In this document: positions 162 through 12,361 of the stretch, one piece after another
Layout: each line of letters opens with the position of its first letter
Position numbering within the stretch: position 1 is the first letter of the stretch
Source: Roseivirga sp.
GTDB lineage: Bacteria > Bacteroidota > Bacteroidia > Cytophagales > Cyclobacteriaceae
Assembly (NCBI GenBank): GCA_021404565.1
Contig: JAAWWF010000005.1
Span: 1-64,000, forward strand
Direction of reading: 5' to 3'
DNA length: 64,000 nt
Made by a program: the position numbers and the translations under genes
The notes under the pieces: model-generated
What the model was told of the DNA's origin: nothing
Seen by the model: the letters and a program-made list of their open reading frames with translations, nothing else
Databases searched by the model: none

Positions 162-2573
162 TTACTCGTATCTGAGAGATTTCACCGGGTTGATTGTAGC
201 GGCCTTATAGGCGCGATAGCTTACCGAGCCAAAAGCGATGCTGGTAGTGCTTAGAAAAGCCAGCACAAATACACCGGGACTGATGGTAGTGCTATAGGCA
301 AAGCCCTGTAGCCACATTTTGGACATCCAATAACCAAAAGGGGTAGCGAGTACTGAGGCGAGCAAGATGACGAAGACAAACTTTGAAGAGAGCATCACCA
401 TGAGGCTGTTCACATTGGCACCAATTACTTTTCGGATGCCAATCTCCTTGGTCTTTTGCTGAGCAATGAAAGTGATAAGGCTGTAGAGTCCCAGGCAACC
501 AATAATCAGGGCCAGGATAGTGGTAAAATTGATAAACTTATAAACCAGTTGATCTACCTCATAATCCAGGGCTAATTCGTCAGTGAAGTCTATATACTCC
601 GGGGTGTGGTCGGGATTCATGGCACGGGCCACCTCCTGAAAATGGGTAGCCACCTCGGCATAGCTGCCTTCGCGATACTTAATAAAGCCCTGATTATAAC
701 CTGAGCGCTGTGGCTCAAATACTGAAGGGCTTATTTCATTCTTAAGATTGTCGGTATGGAAGTTGGCCAATACACCTACAACCCGTGACCTGGCACCATT
801 GGTGATGAGTGTTTTACCGATAGCCTCCTGACTGCCTTCCCAACCTAGTTTTTCAACCAGTAACTCGCTAACGATTACATTTAACAGTGTGTCTTGATAA
901 TTGGCCGGGGTGAACCATGAACCTGCCACGATTTCAAGCCCGAACAGGTCTTTGTAGTCGATGTCTACCAGCTTATAGTCTGTATTGATCTCTCTGCCAG
1001 AAGCATCCAGTGGATCGGTCACAGAAGTGCCCCAGGCAAAAAATGCGTTAGGTCCGCCTGTACCAAAGGAGACAGCTTCTACATTGGGATTCTCCATCAG
1101 GCGCGTTTTGGCAGCATCAATGGTTGACTTCTGGATTCCCCAACCACCGGGCAGAAAGCCATTCACCATCATGATATTGTCTGTTTTGAAACCCAGGTCT
1201 GCTGTTTTGATATAGTTGAATTGTGAAGCGAAAACGAGGAGGAGAATTACCAGTATTTGAGAGATCACAAACTGGAATGTGAGCAGGCCATTTCTGATAA
1301 ACGCCTTTTTGCCGCGACCGGAATTGACATTGCTACGCAGGGCAGCTACCGTATTGAAGCGTGTCAGGATACCTACGGGATACAAACCAGCGACCAGTGT
1401 AACAAGTATGATCAATGCCACAGTGAAGGCCACAGATTCCCATTGCAAGGCAAGGTCCAGGGTGACTATTGAAATAAGCTGGTTGACCTTGTGTAATAAG
1501 AGCTCAGCCAGCCAAAGTGATACAAAACCTGCCAGAAAGGTGAGTACTCCCAGCTCTAAAAAGAACTGCTTTGAGAGGTGTGAGCGACTACTGCCCAGTA
1601 CTTTTTTAACGCCTACTTCTTTGCTGCGCTTCAGTGCCTGGGCAGTCGAAAGATTTACAAAGTTGATACAGCAGGTAAGCAAAATAATGGCTCCTACCAC
1701 GATCAGCAGATACATCATATCACTGCCCACCGTATAATTTACGCCACTTCCAAAACGATCATCCGTATGAATTCCCTTTAAGTTGCCCAGCTCGAAGCTG
1801 TAGATGTTCTCGGCATTCGGACCAATGGCTTCTGCATTTTTGGCAATAATATCATCTAGCTGGTTGGATAGGGCTTTCGGCTCAACATTTTCCGGTAGCA
1901 GCACCCAGGTAGTGCCAATGCTCATGGCGCCCCAGGAATCCCGGACGTAAAACTCCTCTACCTGCTTCATCATATCGATATGAGCCAGCATAACGTAGGG
2001 CATGTTGGTCTTCATGGACGCATCTTTGATGATACCCCTTACAATGCCATCCACCTTACGGCTGAAATTCAGGGTCTTACCAATGGGGTCTTCTGTTCCG
2101 TAAAACTTCTGAGCAATGCTTTCCGTCAGCACCACTGCACGGGGATCTTTAAATACTTCTTCAGGACTACCAGAAACCCACTCCTGATCGAAGAGCTGTG
2201 TGAAATACTCATCAATAAACAGAATGTTGGGCTGGGCATATTTGTTCTCCCCTATGAAAATATTCGTCTCCATAGGACCTACAGTCCTCGACACTGCCTC
2301 AATCTGAGGATAATCTGCGCGGAGTACCTTGTGCAATGGCTCCGGAGTTTGGCTGCCATAACTAGTACCCCATTCCTGCTTGGCCAGAAAATTAACCCGG
2401 TAAACCCGGTCGGCATTGCTGTGCTGATGGTCAAAGGTATACTGGTAATGTACAAAGGTGTAGATGACCACACTGATGGTAATACCAATGATAAGGCTCA
2501 TCAGGTTGATGGCTGAATTCACACCGTTTCTGGTGATGTTTCTGATCGATGTCTTGATTAATATTCTGAACAT
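162..2573 (-). CDS. FtsX/MacB-type ABC transporter permease (paralogue 1)
   Basis: An 803-residue inner-membrane permease of the MacB/FtsX class. One membrane segment near residues 18-42 is followed by a periplasmic MacB_PCD-like region, a three-helix FtsX block (about 285-400), a further helix, a second periplasmic domain and a final FtsX block (about 670-800). Each FtsX block carries the coupling-helix signature of the family: KEVGVKKVLGS in the first and KEIGIRKVIGA in the second. It therefore contains two permease halves in one chain. No ATP-binding subunit is encoded in this window, so the ATPase must lie beyond the left edge or elsewhere. It has its own upstream region with a sigma-54-like promoter (2611-2625) and two palindromic activator sites, separate from the two paralogues upstream. 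The substrate is unknown. Confidence 0.9.
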   Translation of the reverse strand: MFRILIKTSIRNITRNGVNSAINLMSLIIGITISVVIYTFVHYQYTFDHQHSNADRVYRVNFLAKQEWGTSYGSQTPEPLHKVLRADYPQIEAVSRTVGPMETNIFIGENKYAQPNILFIDEYFTQLFDQEWVSGSPEEVFKDPRAVVLTESIAQKFYGTEDPIGKTLNFSRKVDGIVRGIIKDASMKTNMPYVMLAHIDMMKQVEEFYVRDSWGAMSIGTTWVLLPENVEPKALSNQLDDIIAKNAEAIGPNAENIYSFELGNLKGIHTDDRFGSGVNYTVGSDMMYLLIVVGAIILLTCCINFVNLSTAQALKRSKEVGVKKVLGSSRSHLSKQFFLELGVLTFLAGFVSLWLAELLLHKVNQLISIVTLDLALQWESVAFTVALIILVTLVAGLYPVGILTRFNTVAALRSNVNSGRGKKAFIRNGLLTFQFVISQILVILLLVFASQFNYIKTADLGFKTDNIMMVNGFLPGGWGIQKSTIDAAKTRLMENPNVEAVSFGTGGPNAFFAWGTSVTDPLDASGREINTDYKLVDIDYKDLFGLEIVAGSWFTPANYQDTLLNVIVSELLVEKLGWEGSQEAIGKTLITNGARSRVVGVLANFHTDNLKNEISPSVFEPQRSGYNQGFIKYREGSYAEVATHFQEVARAMNPDHTPEYIDFTDELALDYEVDQLVYKFINFTTILALIIGCLGLYSLITFIAQQKTKEIGIRKVIGANVNSLMVMLSSKFVFVILLASVLATPFGYWMSKMWLQGFAYSTTISPGVFVLAFLSTTSIAFGSVSYRAYKAATINPVKSLRYE

Positions 2574-2610
2574 GATGGAAAGTTTTGATCCTTTTATACC
2601 TGATCAAAGG

Positions 2611-2625
2611 GCCATTGCTATACCA
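2611..2625 (-). promoter_or_regulatory. sigma-54-like promoter for the first permease
   Basis: On the minus strand this reads TGGTATAGCAATGGC, which keeps the GG-N10-GC spacing of sigma-54 promoters and matches 7 of the 11 conserved consensus positions. It lies 38 bases before the start codon at 2573. The paired palindromes at 2690-2729 begin 79 bases upstream of the -12 GC, the usual place for NtrC-type enhancers. The match is weaker than the one at 7762-7776. The consistent geometry with the other two promoter/site pairs is the main support. Confidence 0.5.
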
Positions 2626-2689
2626 AAAAATGTAAGTGTCTGTTTTTCAGCTGAATACTCTGCTTATGAAAACTGAGTTCGTACAAAAA

Positions 2690-2729
2690 TGTTTCGGCCT
2701 GAAACAGCAAAGTGTTCCGAATGGGAACA
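2690..2729. promoter_or_regulatory. Paired 17-bp palindromic activator sites A and B
   Basis: Site A (2690-2706) is TGTTTCGGCCTGAAACA and site B (2713-2729) is TGTTCCGAATGGGAACA. Both fit TGTTyC-N5-GrAACA, and their centres are 23 bp apart. Site B sits in a longer perfect 15-bp inverted repeat (2704-2718 with 2724-2738). The same motif pair recurs at 7642-7681 and 7839-7878, next to the NtrC-type regulator gene. Inferred function: enhancer sites for that regulator, acting on the sigma-54-like promoter at 2611-2625. Confidence 0.75.
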
Positions 2730-2768
2730 CTTTGCTGTACTGATGCTTTATTCAAAAATAAGATTTTA

Positions 2769-5159
2769 TCATTCATACCTAAGCGAATCTACCGGATTAC
2801 GTGAGGCAGCCCTGATGGTCTGGGTGCTGGCCGTTATGATGGCGATCACAATGGCTACGGCTGATGCCACCAGATAAGGCCACCATTGAAAGCCTATATG
2901 GTAGCTATAGCCCTGCAGCCAGTTATCGGTAAACAGATGGGCAACGGGCCAGGCAATGAGGTTACCAATGAGAATGAGCTTTAAAAATTGCCTGGTTAGC
3001 AAAAAGGTGATGTTGAAGGTACCTGCCCCCAACACTTTTCTGATACCGATTTCCTTGGTGCGTTGATGGGCACTAAAAGATACCAGGCCGAAAATACCCA
3101 GACAGGCAATGAAGATAGCCAGACCGGTGGCCATGGTAAAGAGGTTGAGAAATCGTTCCTCTCCGCTATACAGGTTTTTCAGATCTTCATTGGTGATGTA
3201 GTATCTAAACCCTCTGTTGGGATCGAAATCGGTCCAGGCATTTTGTATAAAGGCCAACGCTTCCGAGAAATCATCTGAATTGATACTCAGGGTTACATAG
3301 CCTTGTACACGCGCCTGAGGAACATAAATCATGGGTTTGATTTTGTTGTACAACGATTCGAAGTGGAAATCTTCCGTAATACCGATCACAGTTCCTGAAA
3401 CATCGCCCATCCGGAAACCTCTGCCCAGCACATCCTTATTCTGGAATAGCTGTACCGCTGCTTCATTGATAATGATGGCGTTGTCGATATCGGTTGTCTG
3501 ATCCTTAAAGAAGTAACGACCCTCTTTGAGCTTCACTCCCATATCTTTTAGAAAACCCGGTTGCATGTAAATGGTAGAAAGGCTCATCTGTTCCACGGTC
3601 GAATCGGGCTCATAGAAATCAATGCGAGATTGGTTGTTGACATCCCGGGCGATCTGCCGGTTGGTACTCGTTACCCTGCTTATTGCGGGATTACTCTCAA
3701 GTACGGATTTAAGTACGTCAAACCTCTCTGCATTGTCCCCACTTTGAATGGGAAAACTGAGAGTCGTATCCGTATTCATGCCATAAGACTTGTTTTTCAG
3801 AAAATCCCATTGGTTGTATACTATCACTGAAGCGATGATAAGAAAGATGGAGATGGAAAATTGAACCGTAAGCATTCCCTTCCTGAATCCGAGCAGAGAG
3901 TTTCTGCCGGATACTTTTCCCTGTAAGGCCTGAATAGACTGGAAAGAGGAAAGGTAAATGGCCGGATATACACTCGACAAAAGACCTATGGCGATTGCAG
4001 CTACCAGGTAGTATAGGATACGATCTGGATTGTCAAGAAAATTGATCTCCATGGTTTTCCCAGACAGGCTGTTGAAGGAAGGGGTTATTATCTCAGCCAA
4101 AAAACCTCCAAGCAAGGTAGCAATCAGAGTGATGAGCAATGCTTCAGAAATGTACTGTCTGAGTAGCTGAGCCCTGGTGGCACCAAGGGTTTTGAGAATT
4201 CCCACCTCCTTACTGCGCTTGGTGGCAATGGCCGTAGCCATGTTGATGTAATTGACCGAAGCAATGAATATGATGGCCAGGGCCACAATCAGAAAAACAT
4301 AGATGTCTTGTTTGTTGCCATTAGCCTCCATCTCACTATTGATATTTGATTCCAGGTGAATCTCAGTCAATTTTCTTGTAAAGTAAGTCAGCCAGGTAGT
4401 GTTGGCCCCGACATGCTTGTTGATGAAATCGGGGAAACTGGCATTGAAAGATTCGATATCGAACCGTTCCGGAGCCTTGATATAAGTATACCCCGAATCC
4501 CATCCCCAAAATCTACCCATGCCTTGGAAAACATACTGTTCAGTTGTTTTCAAACCTATTAAGAGGTCCATATGAAAGTGACTGTTAGCAGGCATGTCCT
4601 TGATCACTCCTGATACGGTCAGACTTACGTTTTCCCCATTGTAAAACTGATTGAGCCGTAGCTCTTCACCGATGGGAGAACGCTCTCCAAAGTACTTTTT
4701 GGCAGTAGACTCATTGATAACGATAGTGTTGACATCTTGGATTACTTCCGGAGTCCCGTCTATAAATTCAAAGTCGAACACCTCGAAAAACTCATCATCT
4801 ACGAAGTGAATACGATTTTCGAAAAACCGGTTTTCCTTATGAAAAACATCTGTGCTTTGAGGGCGAGAGAAAAAGGTAGTGTTTTCCAGATTCGGGTAGT
4901 CAATCCTCAGTTTTGGTGCAAGGGCATAGCTTGTGCTGGCGATTACTTTTACGTCATCTCCCAGGGGAACAGTTTCGCTAACGCGATAGATTCTGTCCGC
5001 ATCATTATGAAATTGATCATAGCTCAATTCATGATTCACATAGGTGACAATTAACAGCACACTGGCCATTCCCAGGGTGAGACCACAGATATTAATGAGC
5101 GAGTAGGTGCCGTTCCGAACCAGGTTGCGAAAGGCTATTTTGAGTTGATTCTTAAGCAT
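2769..5159 (-). CDS. FtsX/MacB-type ABC transporter permease (paralogue 2)
   Basis: A 796-residue inner-membrane permease paralogous to its two neighbours. It has an N-terminal membrane segment (about 20-42), a MacB_PCD-like periplasmic domain, FtsX block one with KEVGILKTLGA, a mid-chain helix, a second periplasmic domain and FtsX block two with KEIGIRKVLGA. The start lies 10 bases after the stop of the upstream permease (5170), so the two are very likely co-transcribed from the promoter region at 7534-7899. The divergence between paralogues is mostly in the periplasmic halves, suggesting different ligands or heteromeric use. The cognate ATPase is not in the window. Confidence 0.9.
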   Translation of the reverse strand: MLKNQLKIAFRNLVRNGTYSLINICGLTLGMASVLLIVTYVNHELSYDQFHNDADRIYRVSETVPLGDDVKVIASTSYALAPKLRIDYPNLENTTFFSRPQSTDVFHKENRFFENRIHFVDDEFFEVFDFEFIDGTPEVIQDVNTIVINESTAKKYFGERSPIGEELRLNQFYNGENVSLTVSGVIKDMPANSHFHMDLLIGLKTTEQYVFQGMGRFWGWDSGYTYIKAPERFDIESFNASFPDFINKHVGANTTWLTYFTRKLTEIHLESNINSEMEANGNKQDIYVFLIVALAIIFIASVNYINMATAIATKRSKEVGILKTLGATRAQLLRQYISEALLITLIATLLGGFLAEIITPSFNSLSGKTMEINFLDNPDRILYYLVAAIAIGLLSSVYPAIYLSSFQSIQALQGKVSGRNSLLGFRKGMLTVQFSISIFLIIASVIVYNQWDFLKNKSYGMNTDTTLSFPIQSGDNAERFDVLKSVLESNPAISRVTSTNRQIARDVNNQSRIDFYEPDSTVEQMSLSTIYMQPGFLKDMGVKLKEGRYFFKDQTTDIDNAIIINEAAVQLFQNKDVLGRGFRMGDVSGTVIGITEDFHFESLYNKIKPMIYVPQARVQGYVTLSINSDDFSEALAFIQNAWTDFDPNRGFRYYITNEDLKNLYSGEERFLNLFTMATGLAIFIACLGIFGLVSFSAHQRTKEIGIRKVLGAGTFNITFLLTRQFLKLILIGNLIAWPVAHLFTDNWLQGYSYHIGFQWWPYLVASAVAIVIAIITASTQTIRAASRNPVDSLRYE

Positions 5160-5169
5160 ATGAATCTGT

Positions 5170-7533
5170 TTATTCGTGACTTAGAGTATCGACTGGATTG
5201 GTGCGTGAGGCTCTGAGCGACTGCGTACTGATTGTCAGTAAGGCAATAAGCAGAGAAAAAACAGAGGCTATGAGAAAGCTGCCTATACCGATGCTCGTTC
5301 TGTACTCAAAACCATTGAGCCAATCTTGCATAAAGTAATAGGCCAGTGGAGAGGCAATCAGCGAGGATATGATGATGGTGATGATAAACTCACGTGATAT
5401 CAGGCCGATAATATGGGTAATGGAAGCTCCGAGCACTTTACGGATGCCGATCTCTTTCATTTTCTGCTGTAGCACGAAGGTGACCAGGCCGAAGAGGCCG
5501 ATACAGGCAATAAGGATGGTAATAATCGAGAAAGTCAAATAAACCTGAGCTCTTCTGGTTTCCTCCTGGTAAACCCGCTCAAAATAGTCGTTTATATAGA
5601 CAGAACCGAAAGGACGATTCTTTTCAATGGAGTTATAAATTTCCTCGATCTGAGCAATGGTATTGGTGGCATCGACTGCACCGAGTTTCGCCAGGAGATA
5701 TTGGCCTCCCCAGTCAAATTTTGGCTTTAAAAAGAAGGCAAAGGGTTTGACCGGCTCGTATAAGCTCAGCATATTAAAATCTTTGACGACTCCGACTACA
5801 GTAAATACCTCGTCCTCCCCATTCATGCTTATAGTTTGGCCAAGTGGCTCCATCCATCCGTACTTCTTCACAAGGGTTTCATTGACGATAATGGCATTGA
5901 TATCGGTAGCAAAATCGGGAGAGAAATTGCGCCCCTCAAGCAGACTGAACTCCATGGTTTCCAGGTAGTCATAGTCGATGGAGGCCATGCTGATGATATC
6001 CCTGTGTTCTTCATTCTGCTCATCTTTCACGATGAAAGTGGCTCCTGAATCACCGGTAGCCGGCATCAGATTGGTGGCTGTTACACCCGATACTTCAGGA
6101 AGGGCCATAATAGCCGTTTTTATCAACTCTGAAGTATCCGATTGAGCCAGCGGAATAGCCAGCACCTGCTCCGAGCTATAGCCCAGGTCTTTGGTGCTTA
6201 TAAAATTTACCTGCTTGTATACTACCAGTGTGGAAATAACCAGTGCTATAGAAATCACGAACTGAAGCGAAACGAGTACCCTGCGTACGTTCCGGTTGGT
6301 TTTACTACCCGCTGCTGCACTTTTCAAAACCCTGGTAGGCTTAAATGCAGAAAGGAATACGGCAGGATAAAGCCCGGACATGAGACCAAGTACCAGTCCG
6401 AAAACGAGTAGCGTAGCAAGGAATCCGGGGTTTTCCAGAAATCCAACCACTACGGTTTTACCCGTTAGATCATTAAAAATCCCAGTACACATTTCGGCCA
6501 GAAAGCCGCCAATCATTACTGAGCCCATACACAGAATTACCGACTCAGCCAGAAACTGTAGCATTACATGCTCCCTCTTCGCACCGATTACTTTACGCAT
6601 ACCTACCTCTTTGGCTCGCTTCATAGAACGCGCTGTCGCCAGGTTCATATAATTGATTACCGCCAGGAGCAGAATGAAAAAGGCAATAAGTGCGAAAGCA
6701 TAAATGGAAGATTGACTTCCCCCTCCATATTGGCCAGGAGACTCAGAAAGCCAAATATCTGTTACAGGGTAGAGTCCAAGTTTTACCTCAGAATCTTCAG
6801 GAAGAACAGGTAGAATATTTTTGGTAGCGAGCGCATCAAACTTATCGGCAAGACTTTCCGGGTCTGTATTGGGTAAGAGCCTGACATAAGTGACATGACC
6901 GACACGATTCCAACTGAACTCACTCATGGCGCTGTTGGACATAAAGCCCGCTCTTGGTTTGTAATGAGAGTTTTTAGGCATGTCCTGGATTACTCCGGTA
7001 ATGCGCCTGTCCTCATCATTGATGGTGATGGTTCTGCCAATCAGGTTTTCTGTCTTACCAAATATTTTGGTTGCCAGACTTTCTGAAATAACAAAGTCTG
7101 CAGGGGTGGAAAGTGCCTCAACCGGACTGCCGTCCAGAAATTCAACTTCCATGATGTCCAGAAAGCCATTGTCGGCATAGGCAAAGCCGGTTTCTATAAA
7201 CTGGGCACCGTCATGTTTGATCACGGCCGAGCCAACCCGGTGAGTTCTTCCTGCTGCCTCTACTTCGGGAATCGATCCGATCAATGTAGGAGCCATAAGC
7301 CCTGAACCTGTAATACCACCCCTTTCACGACCATTGATGACATTCTCCGAATAGAGACGGTACATGCGATCTTTTTCCTGATAGAACTTATCATACGAAA
7401 GTTCTTCCTGGATAAACCTTCCGAGCAGCGTGGCCATGGCAATGCCTATGGAGAGCCCGAAGAGGTTGATAATGCTAAAGCCCTTATGCTTGTAAAGACT
7501 TCGAAATGCTGTTTTAATGTAGTTTCTGACCAT
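5170..7533 (-). CDS. FtsX/MacB-type ABC transporter permease (paralogue 3), first gene of the permease operon
   Basis: A 787-residue inner-membrane permease with the same two-half layout as its paralogues: membrane segment near 20-40, periplasmic domain, FtsX block with KEVGMRKVIGA, second periplasmic domain, and FtsX block with KEIGIRKVLGA. It is the promoter-proximal gene of a two-gene unit with paralogue 2. Its 5' side faces the divergent sigma-54 activator gene at 7900 across 366 bases that hold four copies of the palindromic site and two sigma-54-like promoters. Family knowledge places such proteins with MacB/LolC-like mechanotransmission of lipoproteins, peptides or antibiotics. The actual substrate cannot be read from sequence. 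Confidence 0.9.
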   Translation of the reverse strand: MVRNYIKTAFRSLYKHKGFSIINLFGLSIGIAMATLLGRFIQEELSYDKFYQEKDRMYRLYSENVINGRERGGITGSGLMAPTLIGSIPEVEAAGRTHRVGSAVIKHDGAQFIETGFAYADNGFLDIMEVEFLDGSPVEALSTPADFVISESLATKIFGKTENLIGRTITINDEDRRITGVIQDMPKNSHYKPRAGFMSNSAMSEFSWNRVGHVTYVRLLPNTDPESLADKFDALATKNILPVLPEDSEVKLGLYPVTDIWLSESPGQYGGGSQSSIYAFALIAFFILLLAVINYMNLATARSMKRAKEVGMRKVIGAKREHVMLQFLAESVILCMGSVMIGGFLAEMCTGIFNDLTGKTVVVGFLENPGFLATLLVFGLVLGLMSGLYPAVFLSAFKPTRVLKSAAAGSKTNRNVRRVLVSLQFVISIALVISTLVVYKQVNFISTKDLGYSSEQVLAIPLAQSDTSELIKTAIMALPEVSGVTATNLMPATGDSGATFIVKDEQNEEHRDIISMASIDYDYLETMEFSLLEGRNFSPDFATDINAIIVNETLVKKYGWMEPLGQTISMNGEDEVFTVVGVVKDFNMLSLYEPVKPFAFFLKPKFDWGGQYLLAKLGAVDATNTIAQIEEIYNSIEKNRPFGSVYINDYFERVYQEETRRAQVYLTFSIITILIACIGLFGLVTFVLQQKMKEIGIRKVLGASITHIIGLISREFIITIIISSLIASPLAYYFMQDWLNGFEYRTSIGIGSFLIASVFSLLIALLTISTQSLRASRTNPVDTLSHE

Positions 7534-7561
7534 TGTATTGCTTAAAAATACGTCAGCACTT

Positions 7562-7576
7562 ACAATTACGATGCCT
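7562..7576 (-). promoter_or_regulatory. sigma-54-like promoter, permease-proximal
   Basis: The minus strand reads AGGCATCGTAATTGT: GG, N10, then GT instead of GC, with GGCA and TTG matching the consensus. It would start transcription about 18 bases before the permease start codon at 7533. Site pair C/D begins 80 bases upstream of its -12 element, close to the 79 and 77 seen at the other two promoters. Confidence 0.45.
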
Positions 7577-7641
7577 GTTTTTGTAAGTGTTTGTGAGTCA
7601 AAGTGTTATGACCAGGATCACGAAAGCTGATTTAAGTTACC

Positions 7642-7681
7642 TGTTCCGGTTAGAAACACATTTCTGTTTCTAACCGGAACA
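7642..7681. promoter_or_regulatory. Paired 17-bp palindromic activator sites C and D
   Basis: Site C (7642-7658) is TGTTCCGGTTAGAAACA and site D (7665-7681) is TGTTTCTAACCGGAACA, centres 23 bp apart. The two are also reverse complements of each other, so together they form a perfect 20-bp inverted repeat (7639-7658 with 7665-7684, 6-base loop). This could also fold as a hairpin in RNA. Repetition of the motif at two other places with the same spacing favours a protein-binding role. Confidence 0.75.
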
Positions 7682-7761
7682 GGTCTAATCATCAGACCAT
7701 TTGAAATTGTCTGACCAAAGTCTGATTCAAGTGGTCCGACCAATAGACACTTCATAATTTG

Positions 7762-7776
7762 ACAAGCGTTGTGCCA
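7762..7776 (-). promoter_or_regulatory. sigma-54-like promoter, distal
   Basis: The minus strand reads TGGCACAACGCTTGT. The -24 half TGGCAC is a perfect match, and the -12 half TTGT differs from TTGC by one base. Orientation is toward the permease operon, with a predicted start near 7750 and a leader of about 215 bases. Site pair E/F begins 77 bases upstream of the -12 element. Confidence 0.6.
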
Positions 7777-7838
7777 TAGTTACAGTCTATTGATTATCAG
7801 TTGTTTATGTCCAGGTCAAAACTTTTTTCTTTCCCGAC

Positions 7839-7878
7839 TGTTTCACTTCGGAACAGTCTTTTGTTCCCCTCAGAAACA
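7839..7878. promoter_or_regulatory. Paired 17-bp palindromic activator sites E and F
   Basis: Site E (7839-7855) is TGTTTCACTTCGGAACA and site F (7862-7878) is TGTTCCCCTCAGAAACA, again TGTTyC-N5-GrAACA with 23 bp between centres. The pair ends 21 bases before the activator's own ATG at 7900 and lies upstream of the sigma-54-like promoter that faces the permeases. It may therefore serve both as enhancer for the permeases and as an autoregulatory site. Confidence 0.75.
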
Positions 7879-7899
7879 ATTTTTTAACTTATTCTCACT

Positions 7900-9270
7900 A
7901 TGCGAAAAGAACAAGGCCGGATACTGATTGTGGATGATGATGAGGATATCTTGCTCACAGGCGAGATCGTATTGAAGCAGAAATTCACACATATAAAAAC
8001 TGCCAGTCATCCTGAAAAAGTCAAAGAACTGGCCACGAAAGAAGCCTTCGATGTCATTTTGCTGGATATGAATTACAAACCAGGCGATAACTCCGGTAAG
8101 GAGGGCCTCGACTGGATTGAGAAAATCACCAGGCAACAGCTGGAAAGCAAGATTGTGGTAATTACCGCCTATGGCGATGTGAATATTGCGGTGGAAGCTA
8201 TGAAACGCGGGGCGATAGATTTTGTAACCAAGCCCTGGGAGTACGAGAAAATCCAGGCCACGGTGATGAACGCTCTGAGGCTTGCCAAAAGCCAGAAAGA
8301 AGTGGCTTATCTTAAAACCAGGCAGCAGGGGCTGAAAGACACCATCTCTGCCAAGCCGGCTGACCTCATCGGTTCTTCTGCTGTGATGAAACGAATTTTT
8401 AAGACCATTGAAAAAGTGGCTCGCACCGATGCTAATGTACTAATCTTAGGAGAAAACGGGACCGGTAAAGGAATGGTGGCCCGCGCTATTCACGCACAAT
8501 CACCGCGGACTGTTGAAGTGTTTATGCCGGTGGACCTGGGGTCCTTAAGCGAGTCACTTTTTGAAAGTGAGCTCTTCGGTCATAAAAAAGGTGCTTTTAC
8601 GGATGCTCGTGAAGACCGTATGGGGCGTTTCGAAGCGGCTGATGGCGGTACAGTCTTCCTGGATGAGATAGGAAACCTCTCTCCGGCCATGCAGTCTAAG
8701 CTGTTAACGGTGCTACAGAATGAGGAAGTAATCAGAATAGGTGAAAACAAGGCGCGGAAGTATGATGCACGTGTAATCGCAGCCACGAATGCCAAATTGG
8801 CAATGCTCATTGAGGAGGGAGATTTTCGCGAAGATTTGTACTACAGGCTTAATACCATAGAGATCGAGATTCCGCCCCTACGCGAACGTGCCGAGGATAT
8901 CCCTGAGCTGGTAGGGTTCTTTTTAAAAAAGTATGGTAAAAAATACCAGCGGCCGGGACTGAATATATCCGAAGCAGCACTGAAGAAAATGATGATCTAT
9001 CGCTGGCCGGGCAATATCCGTGAATTGGAGCATGCCCTGGAAAGAGCCATCATCATGGCCGAATCGGATATCCTGGGTGCGGATGACTTTCTTCTGAAGA
9101 AGGCGAGCAATGCAACGGAGGCCCCTGCTACTACCAATCTGGAAGAGCTGGAAGAAGCTACCATCAGAAGAGTGGTGGACAAACATCAGGGTAATATGAG
9201 CAAGGTGGCCAAAGAACTGGGGATCGGGCGCACCACGCTTTATCGTAAACTAGAGAAGTATGGTATTTAA
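7900..9270 (+). CDS. NtrC-family sigma-54-dependent response regulator
   Basis: A 456-residue cytoplasmic transcription activator with the full three-domain layout. The receiver domain (about 7-125) has the acidic cluster DDD at 12-14 and the phosphoacceptor D56. The AAA+ domain follows, with Walker A GENGTGKG, the sigma-54 contact loop in the variant form GAFTDA, and Walker B FLDEIG. The C-terminal Fis-type helix-turn-helix contains GNMSKVAKELGIGRTTLYRK. The kinase gene follows with an 11-base overlap, so the two form a two-component pair. Three pairs of palindromes near sigma-54-like promoters of the permease genes, including one pair just before this start codon, are the likely binding sites. 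The signal is unknown. Confidence 0.95.
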   Translation: MRKEQGRILIVDDDEDILLTGEIVLKQKFTHIKTASHPEKVKELATKEAFDVILLDMNYKPGDNSGKEGLDWIEKITRQQLESKIVVITAYGDVNIAVEAMKRGAIDFVTKPWEYEKIQATVMNALRLAKSQKEVAYLKTRQQGLKDTISAKPADLIGSSAVMKRIFKTIEKVARTDANVLILGENGTGKGMVARAIHAQSPRTVEVFMPVDLGSLSESLFESELFGHKKGAFTDAREDRMGRFEAADGGTVFLDEIGNLSPAMQSKLLTVLQNEEVIRIGENKARKYDARVIAATNAKLAMLIEEGDFREDLYYRLNTIEIEIPPLRERAEDIPELVGFFLKKYGKKYQRPGLNISEAALKKMMIYRWPGNIRELEHALERAIIMAESDILGADDFLLKKASNATEAPATTNLEELEEATIRRVVDKHQGNMSKVAKELGIGRTTLYRKLEKYGI

Positions 9271-10615
9271 GAACTTCCGTTTCCAGGTATTACTTCGGGG
9301 TTTGGGGATTGGCGCTTCGGCTATAGGACTCGCCTGGTCAATCTATACTACCGAATTTTTAATGACCCCGATTGTATTCGCCCTGGTTACCATACTCCAG
9401 CTGGTGGCACTGATCAGTTATGTGGAGGGTACTTTGAAAGAGGTGAAACGATTCTCCGATTCATTCATTGACAGCGACTACATGCGCAAGTTTGATGACA
9501 CCGACAAAGGAAGCGTATTCAAAGACCTGGGCCTGACATTCAATCGCATTATTGCTGATTTTAAACAAATAAGGATCGAAAAGGAAGAGCACTACCGCTA
9601 TTTGCTACAGGTGAACAGGCACGTGAGTGTAGGTCTTATCTGCTTCAAAGCCGATGGGAAAATTGACCTGATGAATCATGCAGCGGCAGACCTGCTGAAC
9701 ACGCCCATGCTCGACCGAATGGAGCACCTGGAGAATCACGACCAGGCATTTCATCATTTGCTTACACATATGAAGCCCGGGGAGAAAAAGCTTTTCAGGG
9801 CATCATTTACCAAAGAAGCCCGGGACCTTGCCATTGTGGCCAACAAGTTTATTCTCCAGAACGAGTCCTATACTTTGGTATCCCTGCAGGATATACGTGC
9901 GGAGCTTGATGCGCATGAAATGACCGCCTGGCAGAAGCTCATCAGGGTGCTAACCCATGAAATCATGAATTCCGTTACCCCCGTAGTATCTCTTACCACT
10001 GCCATTAAAATGATGATGGAAGACGAGGAAGGGAAGCCCATGCCCGTAAACTCGCTTGACGAAGAAACGGGTGAGGATATTTACCGCAGTGTATTTGCGA
10101 TTGAAAACAGGGGCAAAGGACTTCTTGGGTTTGTCAATGCCTATCGGGACTACACAACTCCTCCCGAGCCGGAACTGGAAAGAATAGATCTGCAGGCCCT
10201 GGCCACAGAGACAATTCAAATCATGGCTTCGACCATGAAAGCCATTACACTTACCATGGAAGATCAGTCAGGCGATGGGATGATGGTGGAGGCTGACCCC
10301 AAACTCATCGGACAAGTTTTGATCAATCTGGTGAAAAATGCCAAAGAGGCGCTGGCAGGTGCTGAGAATGCAGAGATCAGGGTGTTAGTTAAGGAGAATA
10401 GCGCAAAAACCACGCTGTCCGTTCAGGACAATGGCCCCGGAATACCGGAGGACGTAAAAGAGGAAATATTCGTACCCTTTTTTACCACGAAAGACAAGGG
10501 GAATGGTATAGGCCTGAGTCTTTCCAAACAGATAATGAAGTTGCATGGTGGAGATATTACGGCAGAATCTGAGGGTGAAGGAACCCGATTTGTGCTCACC
10601 TTTCCTCAGCCCTGA
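9260..10615 (+). CDS. Membrane sensor histidine kinase (NtrY-like) paired with the sigma-54 regulator
   Basis: A 451-residue kinase. Two closely spaced membrane helices (about 10-60) are followed by a HAMP/PAS-like region (about 85-215), a dimerisation/phosphoacceptor helix with LTHEIMNSVTP (the H is the likely phosphorylation site) and an HATPase_c domain with N box NLVKNAKEAL, G1 box DNGPGIP and G2 box GNGIGLSLSK. The periplasmic loop is almost absent, so sensing is probably at or inside the membrane, or through a partner such as the neighbouring permeases. It overlaps the regulator gene by 11 bases, indicating translational coupling. The 3' end overlaps the convergent LytTR gene by 10 bases. 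Confidence 0.93.
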   Translation: MVFKNFRFQVLLRGLGIGASAIGLAWSIYTTEFLMTPIVFALVTILQLVALISYVEGTLKEVKRFSDSFIDSDYMRKFDDTDKGSVFKDLGLTFNRIIADFKQIRIEKEEHYRYLLQVNRHVSVGLICFKADGKIDLMNHAAADLLNTPMLDRMEHLENHDQAFHHLLTHMKPGEKKLFRASFTKEARDLAIVANKFILQNESYTLVSLQDIRAELDAHEMTAWQKLIRVLTHEIMNSVTPVVSLTTAIKMMMEDEEGKPMPVNSLDEETGEDIYRSVFAIENRGKGLLGFVNAYRDYTTPPEPELERIDLQALATETIQIMASTMKAITLTMEDQSGDGMMVEADPKLIGQVLINLVKNAKEALAGAENAEIRVLVKENSAKTTLSVQDNGPGIPEDVKEEIFVPFFTTKDKGNGIGLSLSKQIMKLHGGDITAESEGEGTRFVLTFPQP

Positions 10616-11310
10616 AGCTTGTGCTGAACGATTTCCGCATATTTCCTTCCTACTGGCAGTTCTGTTTCATGCACCGTTAATCTGGTCCTGGAAAAGGAGT
10701 TAATGGCCTTACGGGCTACGATAAAGGATTTGTGAATCCTTATAAAATCACCGGAACTAAGCCGCTGCTGAATGGCCGCCAGTGTGGACTTGGTTTTAAC
10801 AGTTTGGCTTGGTGTATTGACCAGTACATAATCACGCTGCCCTTCAATAAAGGTGATATCAGCAACGGAAACAGGAACATTATTTCTTCCCTCCTTCAGC
10901 AGAATTACCTCTTCTGTTGGTTCATCTGGCACCGTAGGTTGCGATGTTCGCTCTACCGGCTTTTGAACCTTATTGACAGCTTGCAGGAAACGAGGAAAAT
11001 CAATTGGCTTAAGCAGGTAGTCTATAATATTAAGCGAATATCCCTCCAGGGCATATTCATGGTAGGCGGTGGTTACGATGATCTGCGGTGGGTTGCGCAG
11101 GGTTCTGATAAAATCAAAGCCCTTAATACCCGGCAGGTGCAGGTCCAGAAAAATCAGATCTACAGGGTTTTCCTGAAGGCCGGCCAGACCTTGGGTGGCT
11201 GAATGGCATACCTCTACCAGCTCCAAAAATGGAAGTTCTGCTATGTAATCTGAGATTACTTCTGCCGCAAGTGGCTCATCTTCAATAATCAAACACCGGG
11301 TTCTAATCAT
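10606..11310 (-). CDS. LytTR-family response regulator
   Basis: A 234-residue regulator. The N-terminal receiver domain (about 5-120) has the EDE acidic cluster, phosphoacceptor Asp in LIFLDLHLPG and the conserved K in YLLKPIDF. A linker rich in T and P leads to a C-terminal LytTR DNA-binding domain (about 137-232), which carries the family hallmark region FIRIHKSFIVARKAI. The LytS-type kinase gene lies directly upstream with an 8-base overlap, making a classic AlgR/LytR-type pair. Targets cannot be assigned from the sequence. Confidence 0.94.
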   Translation of the reverse strand: MIRTRCLIIEDEPLAAEVISDYIAELPFLELVEVCHSATQGLAGLQENPVDLIFLDLHLPGIKGFDFIRTLRNPPQIIVTTAYHEYALEGYSLNIIDYLLKPIDFPRFLQAVNKVQKPVERTSQPTVPDEPTEEVILLKEGRNNVPVSVADITFIEGQRDYVLVNTPSQTVKTKSTLAAIQQRLSSGDFIRIHKSFIVARKAINSFSRTRLTVHETELPVGRKYAEIVQHKLQG

Positions 11311-12361
11311 TTTCTGAAAGGTTTAGGTTAAGTACAGCAGAATATACATCATCCTTTGAACTACTGGATAGCTCATGACCGGGATACTGCAGGTCCAGCT
11401 GGCGTTTTAGGTTAGACAAACCAATTCCTCCATTGGCTTCGGTGGAAACGGGATTAAAACTATTCTCTACTGAGAAATGCAAAGAGCCATTTTCTATTGC
11501 CAGCCTGATATTGATAAAACCATTTTCTTCCATTTCAGAGGCTCCATGCTTAAAGGCGTTTTCAACCAATGGGAGCAATATCAAAGGTGATATCTGGTAG
11601 GCAGTCAGTCCTTGAGCTGCCTCAAAGTTTACTTTGATTCTTTCTCCAAACCGAAGTCTTTCCAGCGAGATATAATTTTCGATCATCTGTATCTCTTCCT
11701 GCAATGAGATGGTAGGTTGATTGGTGTCATATAAAACGAACCTCATAAACTTCGACAGTTGCAGAATGGCCTGAGGTGTTTTCTCCGACTGCTTACGGGC
11801 CAGTGCATACAGGTTGTTCAATGTATTGAACAGAAAGTGAGGATTGGTCTGGTTTTTCAGAAATTGAAGTTCCGCGACAACTTTCTCTTTCTCTAATCTG
11901 GCCTCTCTCTCTTTTGCAGCTTTATTGCGGGCATAGAATACCAACATGGCTGCTATGCCTGCTGCCGTGGCGATGTCCACCATTGCCGAAGCCACCCGCT
12001 CCAGGGAGAATAGCTCTTGTACTTCTGGAATGCTAGAGTAAGCGTATGGAAGGACAATGTAGACTACCATCAGCCGGTGTATTACGATGGCCACCGCAAA
12101 GCCAATAAGAAACAAGATCCATTTAAGCAGGTTCTTGTCTGATCGGGGCATAAGCCAATAAATGAGCCAATAGCTGAAAAGAATCCTTACTGGTAACATT
12201 CCTCCCTGAGCAATAAAGGAGGACTCGAATGCCTCAATCTTTGTCAAACTGTCGTACTGACTCAGTGTAAACACGTATTCATGATAGATCTTAAAAGAAA
12301 GAAAGGCTACCCAAAATATGATATGTGCCCGGGGTGATTTGCTGGCATCGCTTCGCATCAC
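11303..12361 (-). CDS. LytS/YehU-type sensor histidine kinase
   Basis: A 352-residue kinase with four predicted membrane helices in the first 150 residues, a short coiled coil (about 150-175, rich in K, E and R), and the His_kinase domain of the LytS class. The phosphoacceptor motif is NPHFLFNTLNNLYAL. A degenerate HATPase_c domain follows with ENAFKHGA and GGIGLSNLKRQL. There is no periplasmic domain. It is translated with the downstream LytTR regulator (8-base overlap), so the two act together. Confidence 0.93.
   Translation of the reverse strand: MMRSDASKSPRAHIIFWVAFLSFKIYHEYVFTLSQYDSLTKIEAFESSFIAQGGMLPVRILFSYWLIYWLMPRSDKNLLKWILFLIGFAVAIVIHRLMVVYIVLPYAYSSIPEVQELFSLERVASAMVDIATAAGIAAMLVFYARNKAAKEREARLEKEKVVAELQFLKNQTNPHFLFNTLNNLYALARKQSEKTPQAILQLSKFMRFVLYDTNQPTISLQEEIQMIENYISLERLRFGERIKVNFEAAQGLTAYQISPLILLPLVENAFKHGASEMEENGFINIRLAIENGSLHFSVENSFNPVSTEANGGIGLSNLKRQLDLQYPGHELSSSSKDDVYSAVLNLNLSEND

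Follow-up and report, generated by a model that had tools for sequence, protein, structure and literature searches.

Introduction

Sigma-54 activators of Clostridiales, in the part of the literature drawn on here, use upstream activating sequences (UAS) that lie mostly 100-250 bp from the promoter and commonly show the frame TGT-N10-12-ACA (PMC6615313). A 2025 survey, in the portion cited here, places COG0577/FtsX permeases of Bacteroidia, gamma-Proteobacteria and Opitutia under predicted sigma-54 control and terms this first evidence (PMC12316311). Permeases and signaling are also joined in Bce modules, for which the part of the source used here describes an unusual ABC permease, a kinase without extracellular ligand domain and a regulator that raises permease expression (PMC10314905). 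In this study, we analyzed 64,000 nucleotides of Roseivirga sp. (assembly GCA_021404565.1, contig JAAWWF010000005.1, positions 1 to 64,000; hereafter the window), in which three pairs of a palindrome occur near genes for FtsX-type permeases, an NtrC-type response regulator and its histidine kinase. Judged from sequence, we consider it highly probable that these recurrent pairs serve as enhancers through which an NtrC-type activator acts on FtsX permease genes.

Results

The palindrome TGTTYC-N5-GRAACA has six exact matches in the window, all recorded on the forward strand: pair A at 2690..2706 and 2713..2729, pair B at 7642..7658 and 7665..7681, and pair C at 7839..7855 and 7862..7878, the last two sites being 44 and 21 bp from the start codon of the regulator gene. 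A first-pass annotation of this DNA had listed the same six sites; all were recovered, without any further exact match in the window, and the three pairs with centres 23 bp apart that it described are borne out by the positions. It also called the palindrome new, a claim too broad as worded: the exact sequence is specific; the frame TGT-N10-12-ACA, by the portion of the Clostridiales study cited here, is common among sigma-54 activators (PMC6615313). When up to two mismatches were allowed, seven more single sites appeared in the window, a total of 13 that is close to chance (mean of 11.1 in 100 shuffles). Exact single sites numbered 10 in the whole 8.57-Mb genome, compared with none for the reversed pattern. 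Two single palindromes (C9:117977 and C81:208881, C denoting contigs of this genome) had no second site, permease or activator in the 20 kb fetched around them.

With the paired pattern, at a gap of 6 and up to three mismatches, a search of the same genome returned the three window pairs at zero mismatches and a single other place, on contig C73, at three mismatches, and the reversed control returned none; at up to two mismatches, no place outside the three window pairs was found in the 8.57 Mb. A looser TGTNYC form added C81:80896 (one mismatch), which belongs to a paralogous system. We rejected the idea that these sites derive from a transposon or a terminator, since the 23-bp pairing is kept across genera.

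Three sigma-54-like promoters were located by 16-mer scoring on the reverse strand. The site TGGTATAGCAATGGCC (2610..2625) faces permease gene P1 at an offset of 64 bp from pair A, AGGCATCGTAATTGTA (7561..7576) faces P3 at an offset of 65 from pair B, and TGGCACAACGCTTGTC (7761..7776) is at an offset of 62 from pair C, so placed that transcription from it would pass through pair B toward P3. The 77-80 bases first reported between pairs and -12 elements are correct to within about one base. The site at 7761-7776 equals in type and offset (62) the regulator-P1 promoter of two congeners, TGGCACAGGCCTTGAC in locus L032 and TGGCACATGAATTGGA in L157 (L denoting fetched loci); this likeness led us to reject the possibility that it is spurious.

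The distance between pair and promoter was then assessed in relatives, using loci chosen without regard to promoter matches. The pair set was limited to a spacing of exactly 23 bp and a summed score of at least 20, with duplicate 40-mers and pairs having either site below 5 removed; these filters exclude the C73 pair (second site 4.2) and a gap-5 place, L189. For each of the 63 distinct pairs retained, we scored 16-mers against the sigma-54 promoter consensus and took the best within about 230 bp on each side. A pair was regarded as permease-facing if a permease was the first gene within 450 bp on exactly one side, and 53 of the 63 qualified. For 49 of these 53, the best site on the permease side started at an offset of 51-54 or 61-66 bp, compared with 2 of 53 on the opposite side, and no best permease-side site of the 53 pairs fell at 55-60. 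Because the relatives are not independent, this result is given as counts and not as a p-value.

The two offset classes are about one helical turn apart, with centre-to-promoter means of 72.7 and 82.8 bp. A periodicity score peaked near 10.7 bp and was nearly as high from 10 to 11.5, which fits the helical repeat without fixing it. The classes were fixed after the first 26 pairs, and the value 61 was added later; among loci fetched after the classes had been written down, 29 of 33 fitted the classes as first written and 31 of 33 with 61 included (other side, 2 of 33). Taken singly, the promoters proposed in the first-pass annotation are doubtful; their support comes from the narrow and helically spaced distances seen for 49 of the 53 pairs that face a permease. 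Among the ten pairs that were not permease-facing, a phased promoter was present in L033, L034, L042, L118 and L158.

Recurrence of the pair was examined in genomes of the same order. The pair, with up to two mismatches, occurred in 13 of 241 genomes (the Roseivirga genome included) and its reversed control in none. When the gap was left free between 0 and 30, 15 distinct places were found, three of them in the Roseivirga genome; 14 had the 23-bp spacing (gap 6) and one a spacing of 22 (gap 5), and the reversed control gave one place. A looser family-level search matched 48 of 196 genomes, with single hits of the loosest-pattern control in 8 of 196. From the family-level matches listed, 34 regions, mostly with zero or one mismatch, were chosen by hand, and two were added from the gap-free search.

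All 20 places that the order search (up to two mismatches) gave outside the Roseivirga genome were fetched, and at 15 of them an FtsX/MacB permease was the next gene, in whole or broken frames (e.g., L024, L025 and L030). In two (L037 and L042) an ATPase or HlyD gene came first with permeases behind it, in one (L034) an S41 peptidase followed the pair with permeases around, in one (L033) a DUF2807 protein followed, and in one (L041) nothing related lay behind the pair. A regulator gene started within 700 bp in 36 of the 63 pairs, mostly within about 90 bp. The first description of the sites had suggested looking in relatives for the paired motif ahead of FtsX permeases in the vicinity of NtrC-type genes; this check was positive (13/241 genomes, 15/20 places, 49/53 permease-facing pairs). 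Sites, spacing, promoter distance, neighbours and recurrence were all observed directly in these genomes. Even among congeners the TGTTYC pair is not universal. Two of the five that were searched (G181 and G412) carry it beside an orthologous regulator (63-65% identical), and the remaining three (G119, G132 and G393) have only a site of the C81-paralogue type.

The Roseivirga genome encodes seven related regulators, including that of the window. The paralogue at C81:79485 has the operator TGTSTCATTATGASACA with a promoter offset of 62, and that on C14 has TGTATYRAAAACAAACR, with a weak second site and an offset of 63. For C34, one good and one poor site were found, and the offset of 62 from the pair edge was counted by hand, a second candidate promoter scoring almost equally. 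No TGTTYC pair was found for the paralogues on C8 and C61 or at C81:321211. When 62 regulators were collected through their kinases, a TGTTYC pair was present for three of the five with the recognition helix [GA]R[ST]TLYR and for none of the 57 others (Fisher p 2.6e-4).

Where the recognition helix differs, so do the paired repeats, which are for instance of TGTTCG or GTGYCCA type and spaced by 20-23 bp. In 10 of 12 loci with other operators, whose pairs were chosen by eye or from a motif-free scan, the distance from pair centre to promoter was 60, 71-74 or 81-84 bp; no such promoter was seen in L102 or L079. Because these operators change in step with the recognition helix and the promoter distance is largely retained, paralogous circuits within a genome could be insulated from each other. 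In L105, from Rufibacter, a phased sigma-54-like site at offset 61 is on the regulator strand and faces the regulator gene, which suggests positive autoregulation in that organism.

In a motif-free scan of 80 named loci, with a 17-bp width and nine others, no convincing peak emerged. In a scan upstream of 73 regulators, a peak was seen at 23 bp (11 regulators), with 5-7 regulators at 20-22 bp and a maximum of 5 at any single distance in shuffles (n=30); clean 23-bp cases were L052, L077 and L118. Our main claim is not carried by the motif-free scan, nor by the kinase topology described below.

The NtrC-type response regulator is encoded at 7900..9270 on the forward strand and the histidine kinase at 9260..10615 on the same strand, both adjoining the pairs as originally noted. 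Pfam and alignment revealed a complete regulator, with receiver (PF00072), AAA+ (PF00158) and Fis-type helix-turn-helix (HTH; PF02954) domains all above cut-off, a GAFTDA loop in the AAA+ domain and the recognition helix GRTTLYRKL. Its score against the NtrC equivalog TIGR01818 was 347.7 bits, under the cut-off of 558.6. Aspartate at the second glycine of GAFTGA was found in 71 of 73 family regulators (those above 300 bits were retained for counts) and glycine in two, L086 and L114. According to the part of the literature cited here, GAFTDA is among the loop variants expected to stay active (PMC4641369), and the same substitution in NorR, G266D, frees that protein from its regulatory domain (PMC2941729). 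The genome has one rpoN match for sigma-54 (PF04963, E 1.2e-51).

Pfam and hydropathy showed a histidine kinase with an N-terminal hydrophobic hairpin of very short loop, placed by inspection between R13 and Y54 and followed by a long cytoplasmic stretch to the H-box; a periplasmic domain is likely to be absent. Among 111 family kinases, both hairpin landmarks were present in 73, and their spacing was exactly 39 residues in 54 of these. Simple hydropathy gave two segments for 62 of the 111; the others had three (30 kinases), four (11), one (seven) or five (a single kinase). Kinase relatives with titles were mostly from Bacteroidota, plus some other FCB phyla. Of 80 loci selected through the kinase, at least 29 contained both regulator and FtsX permease; the true figure may be higher, given the number of short contigs and a permease search that relied on similarity to P1-P3.

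All three permease genes are on the reverse strand, and each product has two MacB_PCD and two FtsX Pfam stretches, i.e., a duplicated permease. P1 (162..2573, 803 aa) is the proposed target of pair A (2690-2729). P3 (5170..7533, 787 aa) is the first gene after the two tandem promoter-like sites, and P2 (2769..5159, 796 aa), only 10 bp from P3, is probably co-transcribed with it. ADOP (TIGR03434) and DarB (NF038008) matched P1-P3 over nearly their full length, at 272-310 and 99-138 bits, both under the curated cut-offs of 622 and 700, respectively. In congeners L032 and L157, the P1 orthologue (55-58% identical in congeners) lies behind the pair that adjoins the regulator, with the promoter at offset 62; in the window, P3 and P2 intervene between regulator and P1. 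The simplest reading is that units of pair, promoter and permease were inserted or duplicated; pair C with the promoter at 7761-7776 would then have been left upstream of P3 as a tandem promoter.

Just past the kinase gene, at 10606-12361, are genes for a LytTR regulator and a LytS-type kinase, relatives of which adjoin FtsX permeases in L039 and L043; they may form a second permease-linked system. Genome-wide, duplicated FtsX/MacB_PCD permeases with a length of about 800 aa number at least 150 and account for roughly 4% of the genome, many of them clustered (C14, C61, C66 and C81). Some of the permease open frames found genome-wide are 860-920 aa long and may represent a second class. With 8.57 Mb, the genome is about twice the size of the five searched congeners (4.1-4.7 Mb); its completeness is 98% and contamination 1.7%.

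The extent of the regulon appears wider than permeases, and the closed regulon of permeases first proposed is doubtful: the conserved, weaker C73 site fronts a small, apparently secreted protein, and relatives have first genes other than permeases. The C73 pair (L043:10001-10040) has a degenerate second half and a promoter-like site at offset 53, an arrangement kept in congener L158. The gene facing this site (L043:9425-9907) is divergent from an ABC-F-like gene. Its product has 161 aa and, judged by eye, an apparent signal peptide, as in L158; no Pfam match was found for the Roseivirga protein. First genes behind such pairs in relatives include those for a DUF2807 protein, an S41 peptidase, HlyD and an ABC ATPase; in L037 and L118 the ATPase gene directly follows the pair, and in L042 it is the second gene. 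In congener G181 (L033:10001-12698), the pair and a phased promoter (offset 52) precede the gene for the DUF2807 protein, which is followed by an RF3-like release factor gene.

Discussion

Based on these data, we propose that each pair would serve as a two-dimer enhancer (UAS) for the regulator encoded at 7900-9270. The kinase would phosphorylate the regulator, leading to its assembly on the pair, and the bound regulator would contact sigma-54 RNA polymerase at a promoter on a preferred helical face, with its start at a distance of 62-65 bp (in relatives, 51-66 bp). Three promoters would be opened in this way, namely that of P1 and the two tandem ones that serve P3-P2. Through pair C, so near its start codon, the regulator gene is probably also subject to adjustment by its own product. 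Binding, activation and phosphorylation are what we infer. Since the kinase seems to span the membrane with a hairpin alone, lacking a periplasmic sensor, it may detect envelope stress within the membrane or by way of the permeases, in the manner of Bce modules; the permeases would then remove or counter the stressor. This coupling of kinase to permeases is a plausible extension, which we would rate a little below an even chance.

Several observations weigh against this interpretation. Two of the three window promoters (7561 and 7761) have GT instead of GC at -12, and the AAA+ loop is GAFTDA rather than the exact GAFTGA. The relatives behind the promoter-distance counts are not independent cases, the best site was elsewhere in 4 of 53 permease-facing pairs, and 10 of the 63 pairs were not permease-facing by our rule, five of these (L037, L041, L179:18170, L182 and L190) being without a phased promoter. 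Two of the five regulators with the matching helix (L045 and L046) have no pair upstream, and the operator occurs in only 3 of 80 kinase relatives. The motif-free peak is partly circular: 5 of its 11 regulators came from pair-chosen loci, and three more look like AT-rich chance. In addition, the sensing step has hydropathy as its sole basis, and no ABC ATPase gene was seen among the genes at 162-12361, where the contig ends 161 bp beyond P1 and leaves the next gene out of view.

Alternatively, the pairs could be operators through which the regulator mainly represses, with pair C over the regulator's promoter, pairs A and B blocking unrelated housekeeping promoters and the sigma-54 matches incidental. 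Such a role would suit pair C, which ends just 21 bp short of the regulator gene, and the many pairs (36 of 63) that are close to a regulator gene; it is difficult to reconcile with sigma-54-like sites that fall in two narrow classes on the permease side (49/53 versus 2/53 on the other), and with pairs in fetched stretches that lack a regulator gene (e.g., L029, L030, L036 and L168). We consider repression quite improbable. Binding of the repeats by a protein other than the neighbouring regulator is slightly less probable still, as operators vary in sequence together with the recognition helix of the regulator next to them, both within the Roseivirga genome and between genomes. That the repeats are due to chance or low complexity is close to inconceivable: reversed controls were zero in the Roseivirga genome and the order search (one place in the gap-free search; 8/196 genomes for the loosest pattern), and the pattern recurs beside the same genes.

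A further possibility retains the enhancer mechanism, and thus overlaps with our own proposal, and differs in what the kinase detects: a cytoplasmic or membrane-lipid cue, the permeases being ordinary exporters. The lack of a visible ATPase gene beside P1-P3, the long cytoplasmic stretch between kinase hairpin and H-box, and the candidate C73 target, a small secreted protein, are all consistent with such a cue. However, regulator and FtsX permease occur together in at least 29 of 80 kinase-selected loci, and the two landmarks of the hairpin keep a conserved distance from each other. We regard this as a serious contender that falls somewhat short of being favored.

If the paired enhancer functions as proposed, a sequence-level rule that combines pair spacing, promoter offset and recognition helix would predict which two-component system governs which of the at least 150 FtsX permeases. 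It would also supply candidate activators for a sigma-54/FtsX link that, in the portion of the survey considered, was predicted at the level of gene families (PMC12316311). In addition, these loci offer a natural enhancer series, in which geometry is apparently kept while sequence changes, making enhancer phasing and circuit insulation directly testable.

The regulator class, the operator frame and the sigma-54/FtsX link are of known kinds. Like the window regulator, NtrC-family activators in the parts of the studies on Clostridiales (PMC6615313) and Desulfovibrio (PMC4641369) used here combine receiver, AAA+ and Fis HTH domains with TGT-N10-12-ACA inverted repeats, often several per target, a downstream -24/-12 promoter and an activator gene that often adjoins its target. 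The window regulator differs from these activators in the operator core TTYC/GRAA, the 23-bp pairing and the FtsX permease targets. The UAS of Clostridiales, mostly at 100-250 bp in the material cited (PMC6615313), also contrast with the two narrow offset classes at 51-66 bp found here. No precedent for this operator or its phase-locking was found among the open-licence papers considered. The sigma-54/COG0577 survey likewise links sigma-54 to FtsX-type 'antimicrobial peptide' permeases, whereas operator, cognate activator and kinase are not given in the part of its text considered; the terms 'operator' and 'upstream activat' are absent from its text (PMC12316311).

The regulator family naturally carries the aspartate of the NorR G266D bypass variant; here, however, aspartate is the wild-type state, in an activator controlled by a receiver. 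With regard to Bce modules, BceB is an FtsX-type permease and the Bce regulator is of the OmpR type. As in these modules (BceAB-RS), at least as portrayed in the part of the source cited, a permease would be partnered with a kinase that seemingly lacks an extracellular sensor, and the regulator would raise permease expression (PMC10314905). Unlike them, the present system has an NtrC/sigma-54 regulator and duplicated 800-aa permeases, no ATPase was seen in the window locus, and the host is not Gram-positive. We tentatively suggest, as an idea that may or may not hold and with the balance slightly against it, that such systems could be a sigma-54-driven counterpart of Bce modules outside the Gram-positives, across FCB bacteria: hairpin kinases would read the working state of FtsX permeases, NtrC-type activators would fire on helically phased two-dimer enhancers, and up to seven paralogous circuits in a single genome would be kept insulated by the joint drift of helix and operator under a constant geometry.

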